From IMG/VR virus record IMGVR_UViG_3300048836_000699, positions 1 to 32,750 of that record: 32,750 bases of DNA; one strand, written 5' to 3'. The notes beneath the pieces were generated by a model. The model saw nothing but the letters and a program-made list of their open reading frames with translations. It made no database searches and was not told the origin of the DNA. Source of the stretch: a virus. Both the position numbers and the translations under genes were made by a program. Below are positions 6,308 through 30,726 of the stretch, in pieces; within the stretch, counting starts at the first letter, position 1; the number at the start of each line of letters is the position of its first letter.

Positions 6308-6315
6308 ACCGGGAC

Positions 6316-6330
6316 TCAAGTATGACTTGA
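6316..6330 (+). promoter_or_regulatory. TCAAG-N5-CTTGA dispersed operator-like site
   Basis: This is a perfect TCAAG / CTTGA inverted repeat with spacer TATGA, in the 44-bp gap between the tail terminator and tail tube genes. It ends 21 bp before the tube start codon and 9 bp before its Shine-Dalgarno. No convincing -35/-10 pair surrounds it. It belongs to the dispersed repeat family described in the findings. Confidence 0.6.
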
Positions 6331-6351
6331 CCCGTCACTGAGGAGATGACG

Positions 6352-7487: not shown

Positions 7488-7714
7488 CGAACGTCAGGAG
7501 GCAGGTCAGCCTCCTGATCGAGCACGGCCACGTAGCCGCCCGAGACTACCCCATCGGCCGCGTCTGGGTCGAGGCGGCCTTGGTTACGGAGAGGGTCAAC
7601 GCTCGCATGGCGGACGAAGCGATCGTCATGCAGGCGGTGATTGCGAGCGTCCTCGACAAGAAGGGCGCGAAGCACCTGAAGGACCTGATTACGAGGTTGC
7701 GCCCCGATGACTAA
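7122..7714 (+). CDS. Tail assembly chaperone G-T fusion made by -1 frameshift
   Basis: The joined reading is 7122-7421 followed by 7421-7714, giving about 197 residues. After the slip the -1 frame has no stop through 7712 and encodes a Gly/Arg-rich linker, then a helical domain beginning FDAWLTNVRRQVSLLIEHGH and ending at LRPDD. This downstream stretch has no convincing start codon or Shine-Dalgarno of its own, yet it fills the space up to the tape measure. In lambda the GT form bridges the short chaperone to tail tube subunits. The TAA at 7712-7714 overlaps the tape measure start at 7707. Confidence 0.82.
7415..7421 (+). promoter_or_regulatory. Programmed -1 frameshift slippery heptamer
   Basis: The sequence G-GGA-AAC is in the correct register (zero-frame codons GGA 7416-7418 and AAC 7419-7421) to be a canonical X-XXY-YYZ heptamer. 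Tandem slippage gives GGG-AAA. Lambda uses the near-identical GGGAAAG in G/GT. A G-rich stretch follows and could form a stimulatory structure, which I did not fold. Confidence 0.85.
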
Positions 7715-17972: not shown

Positions 17973-17976
17973 TAAG

Positions 17977-17991
17977 TCAAGCGAAACTTGA
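17977..17991 (+). promoter_or_regulatory. TCAAG-N5-CTTGA dispersed operator-like site
   Basis: A perfect inverted repeat with spacer CGAAA fills most of the 26-bp gap between the tip and fibre genes. Its right arm overlaps the only Shine-Dalgarno-like GAGG (17990-17993) of the fibre gene, which starts 8 bp further on. Bound protein or an RNA hairpin here would therefore affect fibre translation or transcription directly. No promoter hexamers surround it. Confidence 0.62.
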
Positions 17992-17998
17992 GGCTTGC

Positions 17999-20287
17999 AT
18001 GGATCGGATCGACCACCCGACGGCCGACACGACCTCCGGCCAGCGTCTTTTCGCCGGCGGCACCGCCGTCACGGCCGAGTTCCTGACCGCGATTCAGGAG
18101 GAGGTCATCAATGTCATCGTCGGCGCGGGCCTGACGCCCGACCCGACGAACCTGACGCAGCTTCGTCAAGCGATCCAGTTGACAGGCCGAGTGTCTCTCG
18201 GTGGCTCCGGGCCTGGCGGCGCTATCGCGGCCGACGACCTGGCTCCGGGCCTAGTCGCCGAACTCACGAACGACCTGAGCACCGTATCGGCGCAGGTGCA
18301 GTCCGAGATCAACGCCGCGCTGGCCGAGGTCGACACTGCTAAAGCGGAGGTCGCCCTCGCGCAGAGCGCGGTGGACGTCGCGCGAGCCGAGGCTCTCGCG
18401 GCCCGCACTGCGGCCCTCAACGCCGCGAGCTTGGCCAGCGCGGAGCGGCTCGCCGCAGAGTCCGCGCGCATCGAGGCCGGCAGCAGCAACTTCACGGCCT
18501 TCGCGGCTCGCGACGCGGCGATCATCGCGCGCAACGAGGCCGAGGCGTTCTCGATCATCACGGAGGAGGTGCGCGTCGAGGTCTCCGACGAGATTTCGGC
18601 GGCCGTGGCGACCGAGGCCCTCGCCCGCGCGAACGCGGACTCGGCGCTGAGCGCGCAGGTCACGTCGCTGACTGCGGCGGTGGGGGCGAACGAAGCGGCG
18701 ATCTCCGCGGAGAGCGTCGCCCGCGCCAACGCCGACTCCGCGCTGAGCGCGCAGGTCACGTCGCTGACGGCGCGAACCGACGACAACGAAGCTGACATCG
18801 CGACTGAGGCCCTGGCCCGCACCAACGCGGACTCGGCGCTGTCCTCAACGATCGAGTCCGTTCGGGCGGCGAGCGGCGCGACCCTCTGCGTCCCCGACAA
18901 CACCTTCCTGACATATGGCGCTGCGGGCGGGTGGCTGGCCTACGAGGGTGGCGCGGCTGCATCCGGATACCCCGGAGGGCAGACGCTCACGTCGACGGTT
19001 GCGACGGGCGGCCTGGCGGGCGTCGCGCACATCAGCAACCGGACCGGCTGGTCCGGTGCGAAGCGGCCGCAGTCCGTCTCACTGGAAGTCGCGCTGACTC
19101 GCATCACGGGTGACTTGGGCGGCGCCGGGCTTCTGGTCTATTTCCGCTCGGGTGCCACGATCATATCGACCCAGACCTTTCGCCTAGCTCAGCTTCAGGC
19201 GACGCCGCTGGGGGTGCGGTCGGTCATAACGGCTGTCGCACGAAACACCTCCTCCACGCAGGCTGATCGCGTCGATGTGTACCTGATGGCGGGCTGGCCC
19301 GGCTTCAGCGAGACGATCGCAGCGAAACAGATCCAGTGGCACTCCTGCGACATCCGCCCCGCCAGCGCAGAGGAGATCGGGGGCGGTCGGGTCGGCGACG
19401 CGATCGCGGCGGCCATCGAGGTCGAGACCACTGCGCGCGTCGCCGGGGACTCGGCGCTGAGCGCGCAGATCACGTCGCTCAGCGCGTCGGTGGGCGCGCA
19501 GTTCGCCACGGTCAACTCGACGCTGGCGACGAAAGTGGATTCTGCGGGCGCTCTGGCCGCCGTGAACAACCAGGTCAGCGCGCAGGGGCGCGCGGGCCTC
19601 GCGACAGTCTCGGACCTCACGGTCGCAACGTCGCGCGCCGACGGGGCTGTGCAGGCGACGACCGTGCTGACGGTCGAGAGCAACGGCATCGTCGCCCGCC
19701 GGACGATGACGGCCTCGCCGCAAGGCGGCCTTATCACGTTCGAGGCGGCGCGCTTCGCCATCTGGAACAGCGCGACCCTTGCGGGCGACGCGCCCTTCGA
19801 GGTGGTTGGCGGGCAGGTCCGCATCCGAGACGCCGCCATCGGCACCGCGCGCATCGGCACGCTGCTCCTGGCGGGAGAAGCTGTGACGCCCGAGAAGCTG
19901 CGGCCGAACGCCGTCAGCCGACCCTACGCCGCGACGATCAGCACCAACAACGCGATCTTCGCGACGGTCCAGATGGATCGCGCCGGGTATATTCTCGCAG
20001 GCGTGGTTCGAGAAGTAAACGCGACCAACCCCAGCAGCGCATCAAGCGTGCGAGCTGTTCTGTATATCGACGGGATTCAGGTCGCGCAGACTCGAATTGC
20101 GGAAATCGTTGTAGGGACGGCAGGCGAAAGCGCCGGCCAAGTCATACGAAACACTTTCCCGCTCGACGCTTCTATTTTTGCTGTTCAGGCCGTCGCCGCT
20201 GGCAGCCGGCAGGTTCGCGTGGAATTGATCGGGGCGGGTTTCACCGCGTCGACAGGAACAGGCTTTGCCGTGGGGTACTACGCATGA
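17999..20287 (+). CDS. Tail fibre / tip attachment protein with coiled-coil repeats
   Basis: This protein is 762 residues from ATG 17999; the reading frame is open further upstream, but that part lies inside the tip gene. Residues 1-60 (PTADTTSGQRLFAGGTAVTA) resemble the N-terminal anchor of phage fibres. Residues about 95-290 are Ala-rich coiled coil with three tandem 32-residue repeats (ANADSALSAQVTSLTA). A beta domain at about 295-460 could bind receptor. A fourth repeat leads to a DUF1983-like segment (GIVARRTMTAS, FEVVGGQVRIRDAAIG) and a C-terminal beta domain ending FAVGYYA. The coding from about 19990 is visibly more AT-rich, suggesting a swapped receptor-binding tip. A trimeric fibre is inferred. 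Confidence 0.82.
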   Translation: MDRIDHPTADTTSGQRLFAGGTAVTAEFLTAIQEEVINVIVGAGLTPDPTNLTQLRQAIQLTGRVSLGGSGPGGAIAADDLAPGLVAELTNDLSTVSAQVQSEINAALAEVDTAKAEVALAQSAVDVARAEALAARTAALNAASLASAERLAAESARIEAGSSNFTAFAARDAAIIARNEAEAFSIITEEVRVEVSDEISAAVATEALARANADSALSAQVTSLTAAVGANEAAISAESVARANADSALSAQVTSLTARTDDNEADIATEALARTNADSALSSTIESVRAASGATLCVPDNTFLTYGAAGGWLAYEGGAAASGYPGGQTLTSTVATGGLAGVAHISNRTGWSGAKRPQSVSLEVALTRITGDLGGAGLLVYFRSGATIISTQTFRLAQLQATPLGVRSVITAVARNTSSTQADRVDVYLMAGWPGFSETIAAKQIQWHSCDIRPASAEEIGGGRVGDAIAAAIEVETTARVAGDSALSAQITSLSASVGAQFATVNSTLATKVDSAGALAAVNNQVSAQGRAGLATVSDLTVATSRADGAVQATTVLTVESNGIVARRTMTASPQGGLITFEAARFAIWNSATLAGDAPFEVVGGQVRIRDAAIGTARIGTLLLAGEAVTPEKLRPNAVSRPYAATISTNNAIFATVQMDRAGYILAGVVREVNATNPSSASSVRAVLYIDGIQVAQTRIAEIVVGTAGESAGQVIRNTFPLDASIFAVQAVAAGSRQVRVELIGAGFTASTGTGFAVGYYA
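18614..18860 (+). repeat. Tandem 96-bp (32-codon) repeats in the fibre gene
   Basis: Units begin at 18614, 18710 and 18806. The encoded core (N-A-D-S-A-L-S) recurs exactly every 96 bp, and the DNA stays nearly identical for about 40 bp in the first two units. The third unit diverges after ADSALS. A separate fourth core lies at about 19447-19490. This is consistent with unequal recombination lengthening a fibre shaft. Confidence 0.85.
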
Positions 20288-21011: not shown

Positions 21012-21040
21012 TTGAAAATCAAGAGAAACTTGAGTATATG
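21012..21040 (+). promoter_or_regulatory. Lysis-cassette promoter with operator-like repeat in the spacer
   Basis: TTGAAA (21012-21017) and TATATG (21035-21040) are 17 bp apart. The spacer contains a perfect TCAAG-AGAAA-CTTGA repeat (21019-21033). Transcription would begin near 21047, shortly before the Shine-Dalgarno GGGAGG (21056-21061) and the first lysis gene at 21066. An operator placed between -35 and -10 is a classic repressible arrangement. The hexamers and repeat are seen; function is inferred. Confidence 0.65.
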
Positions 21041-21065
21041 TCCCCGTGACCAGCGGGAGGCGCGC

Positions 21066-21347
21066 ATGACCACCGAGGATCTGCAGGGGGCGCTCTGGGC
21101 CGTCCGCGAGTGGGTGGCTGGCGCCATCCTCGCCATCGTGGGATGGGCCTGGTCCGTCGAGAAGCGCATCCGCAGCAAGACCTCGCACGAGGAGCGCATC
21201 CGGGTCCTCGAGGTCCGCGAGGCCGAGGCTGCCGCCCAGCGCGCCGCCACCGCCGCGCACCTCAAGAGCATCGAGCACCGCACCGGCCGCATCGAGTCCG
21301 GCGTGGACGACCTCCGCAACCACCTTCTCGGAGCGCGCCGTGACTGA
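21066..21347 (+). CDS. Membrane protein at head of lysis cassette, holin candidate
   Basis: This protein is 93 residues from ATG 21066 with Shine-Dalgarno GGGAGG. One hydrophobic segment (EWVAGAILAIVGWAWSV, about 15-31) is followed by a basic patch (EKRIRSKTSHEERI) and a long coiled coil (about 38-85). The gene order before a muramidase and spanin pair suggests a holin or lysis regulator. The single-helix plus coiled-coil form also resembles small phage DUF2730-type proteins. The last 8 bp overlap the endolysin gene. Confidence 0.72.
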   Translation: MTTEDLQGALWAVREWVAGAILAIVGWAWSVEKRIRSKTSHEERIRVLEVREAEAAAQRAATAAHLKSIEHRTGRIESGVDDLRNHLLGARRD

Positions 21348-22386
21348 GCCGTGGATCGTTCACGGCGCGGTCGCGCGCCACCTGACGCCCTACGACTTCG
21401 AGCAGGCGGCCGAGCGCATCGGCTGCTCGCCGGCCGCCGTCGAGGCGGTGTTCGAGGTCGAGGCGGGCGGCCGCTTCTTCGGCGGCGACGCGGTCATCAG
21501 CCGCTTCGAGCCGCATCACATGCCGCGCGAGACGTGGGGCTATCTGGGCTTCGAGCCGGGCGACGCGGCGCCGTGGCGGGCCGCGCTGCGCCTCTCGGAC
21601 AAAGCGCGGCGCGCCATGTTCAAGAGCGCCGCTGCGATTGACCCGGAGTTGCTCATGCGCGCGAGCAGCTGGGGCGCGCCGCAGATCATGGGCTTCAACG
21701 CGCAGGCGTGCGGCTTCGACACCGCCCGCGAGATGGTCGAGCACATGGCGCTCGGCGCGCCGCAGCAACTCGGCGCGTGGGTTCAATTCGTGGAGGCCAA
21801 GGGCCTCGACGCCAAGATCCGGGCGCACGACTGGCGGGGCTTCGCAGAGGGCTACAACGGCTCGGGCCAGCCCGAAGTCTACGCGCGGAAGATCGAGGCG
21901 GTCTACCGGCGGCTCAGCGGCGGGCAGGCGTCGGCTGTGATCCTGCGCGTCGGCGCCCGCGGTCCGGCGGTGCGCGAACTGCAGCGCGCGCTGGGCGTGG
22001 AGGACGACGGCGCTTTCGGCCCGGGCACCGAGCGCGCGGTGCGGGACTTCCAGCGCAGCGCGGGGCTGCCGGTTGACGGCGTGGTCGGGCATCGCACCTG
22101 GTCGGCGATCCGCGAGGCGGGGATCTCGGTGCAGCCTTCCGCGCAGCCGACGCCGGGCGCGGTGCTGGCCGACGCGGCCGTGAAGGGCGGCGGCGTCGTG
22201 CTGACCGGCGGCGCGGTGCTCACTCAAGTCGAAGCGGCCGCCACGACGCTGACCCGCGTGCGCGAGTCGCTCGATGGCGTCGCAGCCGCGCTAGGCGCCG
22301 AGATCGGTCTCGTCATGCTGGGTGCAGGGGCCGCCGCGCTCGCGTTCGGCGGCTGGCGGCTCTGGCGCGAGCGGAGGCTCGCATGA
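21340..22386 (+). CDS. Endolysin: N-acetylmuramidase with peptidoglycan-binding domain and C-terminal membrane segment
   Basis: This protein is 348 residues from GTG 21340. Residues about 15-195 match the phage N-acetylmuramidase family (DUF3380): a likely catalytic Glu41 in FEVEAGG, then SRFEPHHMPR and SSWGAPQIMGFNAQACGF. About 200-262 is a PG_binding_1 repeat (LRVGARGPAVRELQRALGV, DGVVGHRTWSAI). The end (about 321-342, IGLVMLGAGAAALAFGG) is a hydrophobic helix followed by a basic tail. The enzyme would cut glycan strands at lysis. The membrane tail is unusual and could anchor or restrain the enzyme until release. ATGA couples it to the Rz-like gene. Confidence 0.9.
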   Translation: MTEPWIVHGAVARHLTPYDFEQAAERIGCSPAAVEAVFEVEAGGRFFGGDAVISRFEPHHMPRETWGYLGFEPGDAAPWRAALRLSDKARRAMFKSAAAIDPELLMRASSWGAPQIMGFNAQACGFDTAREMVEHMALGAPQQLGAWVQFVEAKGLDAKIRAHDWRGFAEGYNGSGQPEVYARKIEAVYRRLSGGQASAVILRVGARGPAVRELQRALGVEDDGAFGPGTERAVRDFQRSAGLPVDGVVGHRTWSAIREAGISVQPSAQPTPGAVLADAAVKGGGVVLTGGAVLTQVEAAATTLTRVRESLDGVAAALGAEIGLVMLGAGAAALAFGGWRLWRERRLA

Positions 22387-22905: not shown

Positions 22906-23115
22906 ATGAACACCCGACCCCTGCCCTTCGGCTGGCGATGGTGGACGGGAGTCGCCTTCATGCCGGACGGCGACCGCTACACATTCGACATCCCCGCCCG
23001 CACCTTCGAGGAGGCCGAGGCCGCAGCCTTCGAGCTGCTGCCGAACGGCCGACTCGTGGGCGACCTCTCCGTGTTCGACGAGGATGAGACCGATGACGAC
23101 CTCGACCTTGCGTGA
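22906..23115 (+). CDS. Small acidic protein of unknown function
   Basis: This protein is 69 residues from ATG 22906, preferred over ATG 22888 because GGAGG (22896-22900) is well spaced from 22906. It has an aromatic N terminus (FGWRWWTGVAFMPDGDRY), a helix (TFEEAEAAAFELL) and a very acidic C terminus (DEDETDDDLDLA). The 3' end overlaps the next gene by 23 bp. The acidic tail suggests a binding partner with positive charge, but there is no recognised family. Confidence 0.65.
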   Translation: MNTRPLPFGWRWWTGVAFMPDGDRYTFDIPARTFEEAEAAAFELLPNGRLVGDLSVFDEDETDDDLDLA

Positions 23116-24229
23116 GGCCGTGGAGCGCCACGGCAGCGCGGCCGCCGCCGCCCGGGCGCTCGGCATCCCCCGCACCACGTTCCGCCGCCGCCTCGCCGCC
23201 GAGGAGCACCCGACGCTCGAACAGACGGCCGCGGCCGAGGGCTTCGACGCCGCGGGCGTCACCGCCTACTGGCACAAGTCCAAGCGCATCTCGGCCTACG
23301 TGCGCGTGGACCGCGGGCGCGACGAGACGGGGCTGGACCGGGCGTTGGAGCGCGTCCAGGCGGCGCTGGCCGCCCCGCAGCAAGGTCCGCCCCCGGCGCG
23401 CGTCAACGACGTGCTGAGCGTGCTGAGCTTCCCTGACTGGCACCTGCTGATGCAGGCTCACGCCGAGGAGACCGGCGGCGAGTACGACCTCTCGATCGCC
23501 GAGGCGAACTTCCGGGTCGGCGCGGCGCGCCTGCTGGAGCGGGCGGGCCCAGGCGAGGAGTGCCTCGTGCTCGGCCTCGGCGACCAGTTCCACACCAACT
23601 CGAACAAGAACGTGACCGAGGCGTCGGGCCACCCTCTGCAGGTCTCGGGCCGCATCTGGCGCGCCTTCGACATCGCGGTCTACGCCTTCGTCTACGCGGT
23701 GCGCGCCGCGCTGCGCACGCACCGGCGCGTCGTGGTCCGGATCCTGCCCGGCAACCACGACGAGTTCCTCGCCACGCTGCTCGAGCGCGCGGTCGGCCTC
23801 GCCTTCGCGGCCGAGTCCCGCGTCACGGTCGCCGCGTCGCCGCGCTACTACTTCGCTCACCAGTTCGGCCGGGCGATGGTGGCGGCGACGCACGGCAACA
23901 ACATCAAGGGCGGCGAGAACGGCCGCATCCGCGCGGCGGCGATCCTGGCGCACCACTACCGCGAGATGTACGGCACCTCCGACGTCCGCTACCTGCTGTC
24001 GGGCGACAAGCACCACGAGCGCACCTTCGACGTGCCGGGCTGGCTGGCGATCCAGTTGCGTGCGATGACGGCGATGGACGCGTGGGCCGCCAAGAGCTAC
24101 CTCTCAGTGGGTGAGGTCTCGCTCCTGCAGATCGGGCGGAGTGGCGCGCGTCTCGCGCATCTGTTCGAGCCCCTGCCCGCGCTCGGCGAGCGCCGTGACG
24201 AACCCGACCAGCTCAGCCTCGCCCTGTAG
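23093..24229 (+). CDS. HTH-metallophosphoesterase fusion protein
   Basis: This protein is 378 residues from ATG 23093; GAGG (23080-23083) favours it over ATG 23084. Residues about 4-34 form a Fis-type helix-turn-helix (HGSAAAAARALGIPRTTFRR). About 105-350 form a calcineurin-like phosphoesterase with DWH (115-117), GDQFH (163-167), GNHDE (220-224), THGNN (266-270) and GDKHH (304-308), the full set of metal ligands. Such phage proteins probably act on nucleic acid or nucleotides, with the HTH giving DNA binding. It lies after the lysis genes and ends at the convergent junction. The substrate is unknown. Confidence 0.83.
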   Translation: MTTSTLREAVERHGSAAAAARALGIPRTTFRRRLAAEEHPTLEQTAAAEGFDAAGVTAYWHKSKRISAYVRVDRGRDETGLDRALERVQAALAAPQQGPPPARVNDVLSVLSFPDWHLLMQAHAEETGGEYDLSIAEANFRVGAARLLERAGPGEECLVLGLGDQFHTNSNKNVTEASGHPLQVSGRIWRAFDIAVYAFVYAVRAALRTHRRVVVRILPGNHDEFLATLLERAVGLAFAAESRVTVAASPRYYFAHQFGRAMVAATHGNNIKGGENGRIRAAAILAHHYREMYGTSDVRYLLSGDKHHERTFDVPGWLAIQLRAMTAMDAWAAKSYLSVGEVSLLQIGRSGARLAHLFEPLPALGERRDEPDQLSLAL

Positions 24230-25789: not shown

Positions 25790-27089
25790 GGATGAACTCT
25801 GTTGCTAGTTGGGGAACGATGGCGTTGCCGTAGCCGCGGAGGCGCGTGACCCTCGCTTCCGCGTCTTGTGCGAGCGGATGGCCGCCCGGCACCACTCCTC
25901 CGGAAACCCCATCAGCCAACCCGAGAAGCGAGGATTCAACCGGCCGCCACTTTCCATCCCGGCAGAAGATCCAGTCAGCATCTCGCCACGGGCTGTCAGG
26001 CGCGCGGGGCCGCTCCACTCGGGCGGCAACGTCAGGCCATGCCCCGCCACCAGCGCGCCGCAGAGCGCCGCCGTCTTGCGGCTGCTGTCCGTGTTGCCCG
26101 CCTCGTTGTTGCCGTTCTGCGCCGGCGTCCCTGCCATCGGCGTCGGCCAGCCCGCCGTCTGCGCCACGCCCCCGAGGCTCACCGTCGCCTTCGACCCATC
26201 CGGCCGCCGGCCCGAGGACGAGCAGTTCGTCATCGTCTGGCCGCCCTCGGCGTTCCCGACTACCGGCGTCGGCCAGCCCGCCATCGTCGCCGCATCGAGC
26301 AGCGTCCAGCCGATATTCGCCGGCTTGGCGCCCGGGGACCGTTTCGCCGTCGCGTTTCTGCTGGAGGCGGCGTCTTGCGCCGTCGTCGTCGGCCAGCCCG
26401 CCGTCGTCGCCACGCGCGGAAGTTGATCCAACCGGGACCGGATCGAGCCGTCGGGGTTCACGCCCGTCGTCGCCATGCCCGCCGAGTCCCGAAAGTCCCG
26501 AGCCGCAGCGGTCGGCCGCCCAGAACAACCGCTGTCGGATGTGCGGCGCGCCGACGCCCGCAGCGCAGAGATCGGCGGACCCAGCGGCGTATCCCAGCCT
26601 TTCCACGACAGCGCGTAGAGCGGCGAACCACAGGCGGCCAGACTCGCTCGCAACCTGCTCTCCAAGGACTCTTGAAGGGCGGCACTCGCCGATGAGACGG
26701 AGGAACTCGGGCAGGAGGTGGCGATCGTCACTGCGCCATTCGTGGCTGCAATCGAGACACACCCATCCGGCAGTGATGAGAGGATGCGCGAGAGCGCGCT
26801 TTCCGCCGCAGTCAGGGCAGAGTTGGCCTTTGCCCGCGGCGCTGAACGGGGGGCACGGGCAGGAGCCGGTCCAGATCGGCTCGTCGGGCGAGACGCCGGC
26901 GAGTTCGAGTGCCAGAGGCCACCCGCCGATGCCCGCGAAGAAGTGGCACTGCGAAAAGCCTCGAAGATCGGAAGGCTGAACATCGACGATGCTCCGACGG
27001 TCTACGACACCCGCAGGTATCAAGTTTTCCTTGACAAGCTGCTCAAGCCAATCCGCGGCAGCAGCGTCGAATTCATTGTAGTAGTTCAA
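25776..27089 (-). CDS. C5-cytosine DNA methyltransferase with zinc-ribbon insertion
   Basis: This protein is 437 residues from TTG 27089, which overlaps the upstream stop (TTGA) and gives the usual MNYYNEFDAAAADWL start of this phage family. The motifs are FAGIGGW (51-57), catalytic Pro78-Cys79 within SCPCPPFS (PCQPFS in most relatives), GEQVAS (143-148, ENV equivalent), IRQR (184-187) and GYGNAIVP near the C terminus. Residues 91-114 carry C-x2-C-x16-C-x2-C, a likely zinc ribbon placed right after the catalytic loop. The middle contains repeated GGLAD(A/D) units at about 227-317. It methylates cytosine in phage DNA; the target is unknown. Confidence 0.92.
   Translation of the reverse strand: MNYYNEFDAAAADWLEQLVKENLIPAGVVDRRSIVDVQPSDLRGFSQCHFFAGIGGWPLALELAGVSPDEPIWTGSCPCPPFSAAGKGQLCPDCGGKRALAHPLITAGWVCLDCSHEWRSDDRHLLPEFLRLIGECRPSRVLGEQVASESGRLWFAALRAVVERLGYAAGSADLCAAGVGAPHIRQRLFWAADRCGSGLSGLGGHGDDGREPRRLDPVPVGSTSARGDDGGLADDDGARRRLQQKRDGETVPGRQAGEYRLDAARCGDDGGLADAGSRERRGRPDDDELLVLGPAAGWVEGDGEPRGRGADGGLADADGRDAGAERQQRGGQHGQQPQDGGALRRAGGGAWPDVAARVERPRAPDSPWRDADWIFCRDGKWRPVESSLLGLADGVSGGVVPGGHPLAQDAEARVTRLRGYGNAIVPQLATEFIRAIR
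26139..26410 (-). repeat. Spaced repeats inside the cytosine methylase gene
   Basis: A near-identical 22-27 bp unit with core GTCGGCCAGCCCGCC occurs at 26139, 26264 and 26384, about 120-125 bp apart. On the coding strand it specifies GGLAD(A/D) in the variable region of the methylase. Such GLADA repeats recur in this phage methylase family and probably lie in the target-recognition region. Confidence 0.75.
27020..27034 (-). promoter_or_regulatory. TCAAG-N5-CTTGA site inside the methylase coding region
   Basis: This is a perfect inverted repeat whose coding-strand spacer is GAAAA, beginning 55 bp inside the methylase gene. It spans codons for V-K-E-N-L and is followed by ATA, all AT-rich choices including TTG and ATA in an otherwise very GC-rich gene. 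The orientation of the A-rich spacer again follows transcription. It may be a roadblock or operator site kept at the cost of codon choice. Confidence 0.5.
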
Positions 27090-27948: not shown

Positions 27949-28094
27949 ACAGGTTCCTCTCTGAAGGCGCGCATCAGCGCCACCCACGGGTCGTCGGCGT
28001 AGGCCACCGACCACCCTCCAGTCTCAGCGTCTTGCACGGACGCCACCCAGCGACCGTGCGGGCTGTCGACTTGGCGGACGTTAAACGCCCTCAT
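27945..28094 (-). CDS. Small 49-residue protein between GapR and HD genes
   Basis: Translation from ATG 28094 gives 49 residues: [20 protein letters not shown] and then a Trp-rich part ending FREEPV. The start lies within the last codons of the GapR gene (14-bp overlap) and its stop overlaps the HD gene start by ATGA. It fills the whole interval, which supports it despite its size. A compact beta-sheet protein is likely; function unknown. Confidence 0.65.
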
Positions 28095-28317
28095 CGAGCG
28101 CGTTCAGGTAGAGTTCGATGAGGGCTTCTTCCTCGGCGCGTTCGTCGGCGTCGCGCTTCATCAGCGCGATCACTTTGCGCAGGATCTTGGTGTCGAAGCC
28201 GTTGCCCTTGGCCTCAGCGTAGACTTCCTTGATCTGGTCGGCGACTTCCTGCTTCTCCTTTTCGAGCGTCTGGATGCGCTCGACGAGGGCTCGCAGCTGG
28301 GGGCTCAGGTTGCTCAT
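28081..28317 (-). CDS. GapR-family (DUF2312) nucleoid-associated protein
   Basis: This 78-residue protein has a coiled-coil N terminus ([20 protein letters not shown]) followed by [20 protein letters not shown] and an acidic helix ending [15 protein letters not shown]. This is the DUF2312/GapR signature; in Caulobacter, GapR clamps overtwisted DNA and aids replication. The phage copy could support its own replication or alter host nucleoid behaviour. It has a strong Shine-Dalgarno (AAGGAG) and a TCAAG repeat just upstream, so it may head a sub-operon. Confidence 0.9.
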
Positions 28318-28332
28318 GTGATTCTCCTTGAA

Positions 28333-28347
28333 TCAAGGTTTAGTTGA
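28333..28347 (-). promoter_or_regulatory. TCAAG-N5-CTTGA-like site upstream of gapR
   Basis: On the minus strand this reads TCAAC-TAAAC-CTTGA, matching nine of ten arm bases, with an A-rich spacer. It lies in the 31-bp gap between the Dam-like gene and gapR and ends 15 bp before the ATG, next to the Shine-Dalgarno. A further TCAAGG directly after it forms a second small palindrome (CCTTGAATCAAGG, 28326-28338 on the plus strand numbering). Confidence 0.5.
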
Positions 28348-30711: not shown

Positions 30712-30726
30712 TCAAGTTTATCTTGA
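30712..30726 (-). promoter_or_regulatory. TCAAG-N5-CTTGA dispersed operator-like site
   Basis: This is a perfect inverted repeat, with spacer ATAAA on the minus strand. It spans the TAA stop of the membrane-protein gene at 30718 and occupies the gap before the ribbon-helix-helix-like gene. On the minus strand TTGACA also occurs (within CTTGACAG), but no good -10 follows at proper spacing. Confidence 0.6.

Follow-up and report, generated by a model that had tools for sequence, protein, structure and literature searches.

The stretch of DNA analyzed here (the window; 32,750 nucleotides) is the entire IMG/VR record IMGVR_UViG_3300048836_000699, which is itself a fragment of a viral genome. The window has the portal, protease, major capsid, tape measure, and tail genes of a Chi-like siphophage (Casjensviridae). 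Judging from relatives, approximately half of a genome of about 60 kb would be absent, including the terminase, the integrase, and any repressor gene. We sought contigs bearing the left edge of the window to recover the missing half, and found none; the near-identical contigs L010 and L029 show 100% identity, which leaves no polymorphism to compare.

Two places in the rightward late operon (positions 1 to 24229) are central to this analysis. At the left edge, a head-joining gene (57 to 278, + strand), with orthologues annotated as joining or gpW-like, lies downstream of a promoter-like element at 2 to 30. A similar element at 21012 to 21040 (+) precedes the lysis genes, which comprise a gene for a small lysis-cassette protein (21066 to 21347, +; XhlA match weak and below threshold) and an endolysin gene (21340 to 22386, +) encoding a muramidase with a peptidoglycan-binding domain (PHROG 1224 / 1493, tblastn). 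Farther along, a leftward gene (28081 to 28317, − strand) encodes a GapR-like DNA-binding protein (PF10073, E value of 4.5e-30), also found in the relative G001 at 36475 to 36750. We also observed an exonuclease/metallophosphoesterase gene with a Fis-like helix-turn-helix (HTH) at the N terminus of its product (23093 to 24229, +) and a gene for a small secreted protein with a VPLPAA-type, sorting-like C-terminal tail, which is unusual for a phage (31165 to 31650, −).

Promoter-like elements and a repeat family in the window

The left-edge element reads TTGAAA-G-TCAAGCAAAAGTAGA-G-TATGAC, and the element before the lysis genes reads TTGAAA-A-TCAAGAGAAACTTGA-G-TATATG. A preliminary description had matched these two segments to each other, with an inverted repeat centered between the hexamers and a gap-free alignment differing at a few positions, and the sequence bears this out: both spacers are 17 bp, each holds a centered 15-bp repeat (1+15+1), and the 29-mers share 21 of 29 positions without gaps, with three of the eight differences falling on the final three bases. 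The repeat at 21019 to 21033 has perfect 5-bp arms, and that at 9 to 23 has two mismatches in its right arm. TTGAAA-N17-TAT has no other match on either strand of the whole window (expectation of 0.34 with one mismatch allowed). As promoters, both elements have the exact N17 spacing and a hexamer score of 9/12 without the final T; the −10 hexamers are mediocre, at 4/6 each. A strict sigma-70 scan calls neither element, and strict promoter and terminator scans gave no signal above chance, with terminators at or below it.

The repeat belongs to a larger family. There are five exact copies of TCAAG-N5-CTTGA in the window (at 6316, 17977, 21019, 27020, and 30712), compared to approximately 0.006 expected from base composition, and two further copies, at 28333 (one mismatch) and 9 (two mismatches), bring the total to at least seven sites. 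Allowing up to one mismatch, we counted 8 matches with an N5 gap against 0.13 expected from Markov simulation of the sequence, and 0 to 2 matches for each other gap length. The matches at 1716 and 11347, both within coding sequence, are probably due to chance.

Four true intergenic gaps in the late operon reach 20 bp or more (1 to 56, 6308 to 6351, 17973 to 17998, and 21012 to 21065), and one site lies in each. In addition to the candidate operators TCAAGCAAAAGTAGA (9 to 23, +) and TCAAGAGAAACTTGA (21019 to 21033, +) within the promoter-like elements, TCAAGTATGACTTGA (6316 to 6330, +; exact arms) lies in a 44-bp gap whose downstream neighbor is the major tail protein gene (PHROG 807), and TCAAGCGAAACTTGA (17977 to 17991, +; exact arms) fills a 26-bp gap, has no −35 or −10 hexamer, and overlaps the Shine-Dalgarno region of a tail-fibre-like gene (17999 to 20287). 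A fifth called gap (7488 to 7706) probably corresponds to a frameshifted tail-chaperone product. On the − strand, the operator-like TCAACTAAACCTTGA (28333 to 28347; one mismatch) is 16 bp upstream of the GapR-like gene, and the candidate operator TCAAGATAAACTTGA (30712 to 30726; exact arms) lies between leftward genes, where it overlaps the stop codon of the upstream one. The operator-like TCAAGGAAAACTTGA (27020 to 27034, −; exact arms) is less certain because it is intragenic, inside the 5′ end of a leftward Dcm-like methylase ORF. The N5 core is A-rich along the direction of transcription at six of the seven window sites and neutral at one (mean A-T skew of 2.9, n = 7); this skew is weak in the relative G002 and absent in five other phages, and we found no family-wide orientation of the core across the compared phages.

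Palindrome arrays in related phages

A weight matrix built from the seven window sites was applied to G001, a 63.5-kb relative with a capsid protein 56% identical to that of the window. All 12 of the 12 best matches were intergenic, in a genome with an intergenic fraction of 0.118. When the intergenic DNA of 18 genomes was searched for dyads without bias, the N5/N7/N9 geometry came out on top in seven: the window, G001, RcCWillis, RHph_X2_30, AchV4, G008, and G002. We count as top a first rank and also a rank directly below a nested dyad belonging to the same palindrome; the RcCWillis result appears as the nested CACG-N5-CGTG. With refined matrices, each of the six relatives holds 15 to 25 intergenic palindromes that have the geometry seen in the window and drifted letters. 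The two coding sites above threshold in each relative follow by construction, because the threshold is the third-best coding score.

Arm letters are TCAAG or TCAAT in the window and G001, TCACG/TCACA in RcCWillis, TCAAC in AchV4, RHph_X2_30, and G008, and TCACC/TCAAC in G002. Arm complementarity is maintained while these letters change between phages; the outer TCA/TGA letters are conserved, with positions 2 (C) and 14 (G) being nearly invariant. The statistic for a gap of 5 gave log10 P values of −5.4 to −14 in the window and the six site-bearing relatives, and with fixed arms, gaps of 4 and 6 gave nothing in any genome examined. In viral contigs, the exact pattern TTGAAANTCAAGNNAAACTTGA gave 7 matches, mostly in AT-rich unrelated phages, and was uninformative; GTCAAGNNAAACTTGAG gave at least 120 matches, with a modest cluster only in L273, a contig not evidently related.

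Positions within the genomes are also shared. A palindrome lies upstream of the head-joining gene in the window and five of the six relatives (G001, G002, RcCWillis, G008, and RHph_X2_30). The gene for the major tail protein is preceded by one in the window and in G001, G002, G008, and AchV4 (four of the six). The endolysin gene has an upstream site in G001 and G002, and the GapR-like gene has one in the window and G002. For most late genes that lack a site in the window, the orthologues in the relatives lack one as well; the tape measure gene, two tail genes, and a methylase gene depart from this pattern.

The placement of a site between promoter hexamers recurs as well. TTG at −7 combined with TAT at +16 (TTG-N4-[15 bp]-N-TAT) was found in 8 of 254 site orientations, compared to an expectation of 0.09 over all intergenic positions (P of approximately 8e-15). 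These sites include both window elements, G002 22861, and RcCWillis 47154, which reads TTGACT-C-TCACATCTGATGTGA-G-TATACC and lies directly before the holin gene. Because eight sites share this register, we regard the operator-in-promoter architecture as real and recurrent, and because the register recurs in other Chi-like phages, the head and lysis promoters of the window are likely under one regulator acting at a shared operator, as the preliminary description had proposed. Its picture of a device of two promoters serving head and lysis genes is too narrow, however: there are at least seven sites, they also precede other genes (those for the major tail protein, the tail fibre, and the GapR-like protein, and a small early gene), and most, in the window and across the family, have no promoter architecture. 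The conserved unit is the repeat, not the promoter.

Several additional features of the relatives were observed. Palindromes occur in tandem at exactly 19 bp start to start in G001 (12572/12591, 20289/20308, and 28552/28571), G002 (11371/11390), G008 (25667/25686), and RcCWillis (58581/58600), a spacing that places the right arm of the first palindrome near the −35 position of the second. In RcCWillis (L045, L046), early-region sites at 59017, 59619, 61751, 62465, and 65281 lie within a longer repeat, roughly ctagTTTCACGTTAGATGTGAAAcaacgaaaccgaa, in which the downstream flank is conserved too. Many early or replication proteins of G001 (L039 to L042) have an acidic motif, either a terminal or near-terminal DDLI or an internal DDFDDLD (genes at 2668, 2934, 35940, 36200, 36475, 37157, 52740, 56932, 58008, and 60850), which may be a shared interaction tag. 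G001 also has a flagellin-like gene (51591 to 52511, on L041) inside a Chi-like phage or prophage; Chi relatives are described as flagellotropic.

A candidate repressor and competing explanations

We compared protein families across genomes and found that the best match to the presence of sites is a CI-like protein of 220 to 240 residues that matches HTH_3 and PHROG 2967. It is encoded in all six site-bearing genomes and in 2 of 10 others (hypergeometric P of 0.0035 for these 16 genomes, ignoring phylogeny). The gap-5 statistic is weak or nil in every genome without it, and the closest isolate, pCB2051-A, has neither array nor repressor. Searching for the repressor gene yielded 68 loci, or 56 after removal of near-duplicates. 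TCAxx-N5-xxTGA lies within 260 bp upstream of the gene at 32 of the 68 loci, compared to counts of 1, 0, 0, 4, and 4 for gaps of 3, 4, 6, 7, and 8. Among the nonredundant loci, 27 of 56 have an upstream N5 palindrome, 16 of them with perfect arms, and other gaps give 0 to 4, none perfect. These upstream palindromes suggest that the repressor may regulate its own gene. Dispersed, significant TCAAC-N5-GTTGA arrays occur in more than 20 of the phages and prophages that carry the repressor, among them prophages of Stutzerimonas and Aquamicrobium.

In an alignment, the recognition helix varies with the operator (SHEAV/SPEAV with TTCAAC, KET/KES with GTCA, and AET with TCACR), an apparent covariation that we offer as a lead. 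Roughly half of the repressor loci lack an upstream TCA-type palindrome, including most members with an SQEAV helix. The relatives with the recognition helix SQEAVRKW (L122 to L147), which mostly belong to this group, may read another operator.

The structural model of the G008 repressor (mean pLDDT of 87, pTM of 0.60) has an N-terminal domain like that of P22 c2 (3jxb, TM to target of 0.83 to 0.85). The best PDB matches of its C-terminal domain are Hjc resolvases and the homing endonuclease I-Ssp6803I, with E values of approximately 2e-3 and above and TM scores of 0.44 to 0.58, which faintly hint at a PD-(D/E)XK nuclease fold. On inspection of the alignment, the strand where E-x-K is expected reads Q-x-x-x-H-V; therefore, the nuclease-like domain is probably noncatalytic. 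We detected no S24/LexA-type peptidase domain in the repressor: Pfam finds only the HTH, and the modeled C-terminal fold differs.

Given these data, the palindromes are quite probably dispersed operators of a homodimeric CI-type repressor, some of them blocking promoters and others possibly elongation, as stoperators do. The evidence from dozens of related viruses indicates that such palindromes are docking sites of the phage's own dormancy repressor. The comparisons thus favor a prophage repressor with dispersed operators over the dedicated late-gene regulator implied by the preliminary description. The link between this repressor and the window runs through relatives only, because the window holds no repressor gene; we infer that the phage carries a repressor of the PHROG 2967 type and that this protein would bind the palindromes.

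We consider it rather unlikely that the sites instead belong to another regulator, such as the small Cro-like HTH protein encoded next to the primase or a late-gene activator acting in the −35/−10 spacer, with the CI-like protein as a bystander or competitor. Lambdoid CI and Cro share operators, every one of the six site-bearing genomes encodes the primase-adjacent HTH, and sites lie upstream of some of these genes (RcCWillis 6292 and G001 55431). However, this HTH is also present in the site-less genomes of pCB2051-A, Phobos, PspYZU01, V16, and DSS3-P1, and its presence therefore follows that of the sites less closely than does that of the CI-like protein, and it is upstream of the CI-like gene that the palindrome recurs over 56 nonredundant loci. 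Complementary 5-bp arms around a 5-nt loop, retained as letters change between phages, would also be expected of RNA elements, either short hairpin terminators or translational operators, and several sites are near start codons, with 17977 overlapping a Shine-Dalgarno region. This reading is very improbable, given that a stem does not require the conserved outer TCA/TGA letters, that the eight sites located between −35 and −10 would not be transcribed from those promoters, and that the terminator scan was at or below chance.

A host regulator such as CtrA, which controls several alphaproteobacterial phages (PMC9437464), would fit the N7 spacing, which equals that of the CtrA box (TTAA-N7-TTAA). 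We give this even less credence: the near-invariant C and G at positions 2 and 14 are unlike TTAA, so the sites do not read as CtrA boxes, arrays also occur in Achromobacter phage AchV4 and the Stutzerimonas prophage, with hosts outside the Alphaproteobacteria, and the site sequence varies by phage and accompanies a phage gene. Finally, the intergenic DNA of this GC-rich phage is AT-richer, and short palindromes arise randomly, but chance or compositional resemblance has a negligible probability. It is refuted by the comparative tests, in which cross-genome prediction was entirely intergenic and junctions were conserved, and it fits neither the excess of N5 matches over simulation nor the empty controls at gaps of 4 and 6.

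Proposed mechanism and comparison with known systems

For the repressor-operator reading, we propose the following mechanism. The 5-bp arms are centered 10 bp apart, with a gap of exactly 5, so that half-sites are one helical turn apart, and a repressor dimer would sit on each palindrome with its half-sites on successive turns of the DNA. At 2 to 30 and 21012 to 21040, repressor bound between −35 and −10 would exclude RNA polymerase, which would silence the head and lysis promoters in the lysogen. By analogy with stoperators, repressor bound at the promoterless sites 6316 and 17977 would serve as a roadblock against transcription reading through. The operator copies are spread over the genome, occupying almost every late intergenic gap and also preceding some of the leftward genes.

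As a more tentative generalization, which we consider possible but somewhat doubtful, stoperator-like silencing may have evolved independently in temperate Chi-like phages of Proteobacteria. A dimeric CI-type repressor, its second domain derived from an inactivated nuclease fold, would bind 15 to 25 palindromes, many in late-operon gaps, and stop both initiation and elongation throughout the prophage, and operator letters and recognition helix would drift together to give new immunity groups. A candidate operator sequence can now be given for each phage, immunity groups would be predictable from sequence, and the sites would help to annotate temperate members of the largely lytic-looking Chi-like family.

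Our literature search on operators or stoperators in Casjensviridae found nothing relevant. The genome-wide dispersed repressor sites that it did find are from actinobacterial phages (cluster A mycobacteriophages and phages of Rhodococcus and Streptomyces), and the dispersed layout is known mainly from viruses of mycobacteria. Ruegeria phage DSS3-P1 and its relatives are described as presumably temperate phages related to Chivirus that have a repressor/integrase tandem, and the available part of the paper describing them makes no mention of operators (PMC9437464). They share the repressor family with the site-bearing Chi-like phages; DSS3-P1 and V16 have a divergent member, yet differ in that we found no such operator array in either.

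Compared to CI of lambda and P22 (c2), the Chi-like system has in common a palindromic operator, a dimer-type HTH, and a modeled N-terminal domain like that of P22 c2. P22 half-sites also have AAG/CTT letters, but an N4 center. In lambda and P22, the operators cluster at divergent early promoters, whereas the Chi-like ones are dispersed over 15 to 25 places, including late operons, and the C-terminal S24 autopeptidase domain of the lambda type was not found in the PHROG 2967 repressor.

The layout more closely recalls the stoperators of cluster A mycobacteriophages, where the sites of one repressor number more than 20 and are dispersed over promoters and short intergenic gaps; each site is 13 bp, asymmetric, and orientation-dependent, and the repressor is monomeric (PMC9283540). 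As in L5, Bxb1, and TipsytheTRex, there are many dispersed sites in promoters and short gaps, and here the gaps of the late operon are filled. Unlike the cluster A site, the Chi-like site is a 15-bp palindrome with no family-wide orientation, and the cluster A repressor joins its HTH to a Stoperator domain, whereas the second domain of the Chi-like repressor has a different predicted fold. Because two defining features differ, we do not class the Chi-like system as a member of the stoperators, although the layout is alike. If our interpretation is true, a palindromic counterpart with a different repressor would suggest that roadblock silencing of a whole prophage arose more than once.
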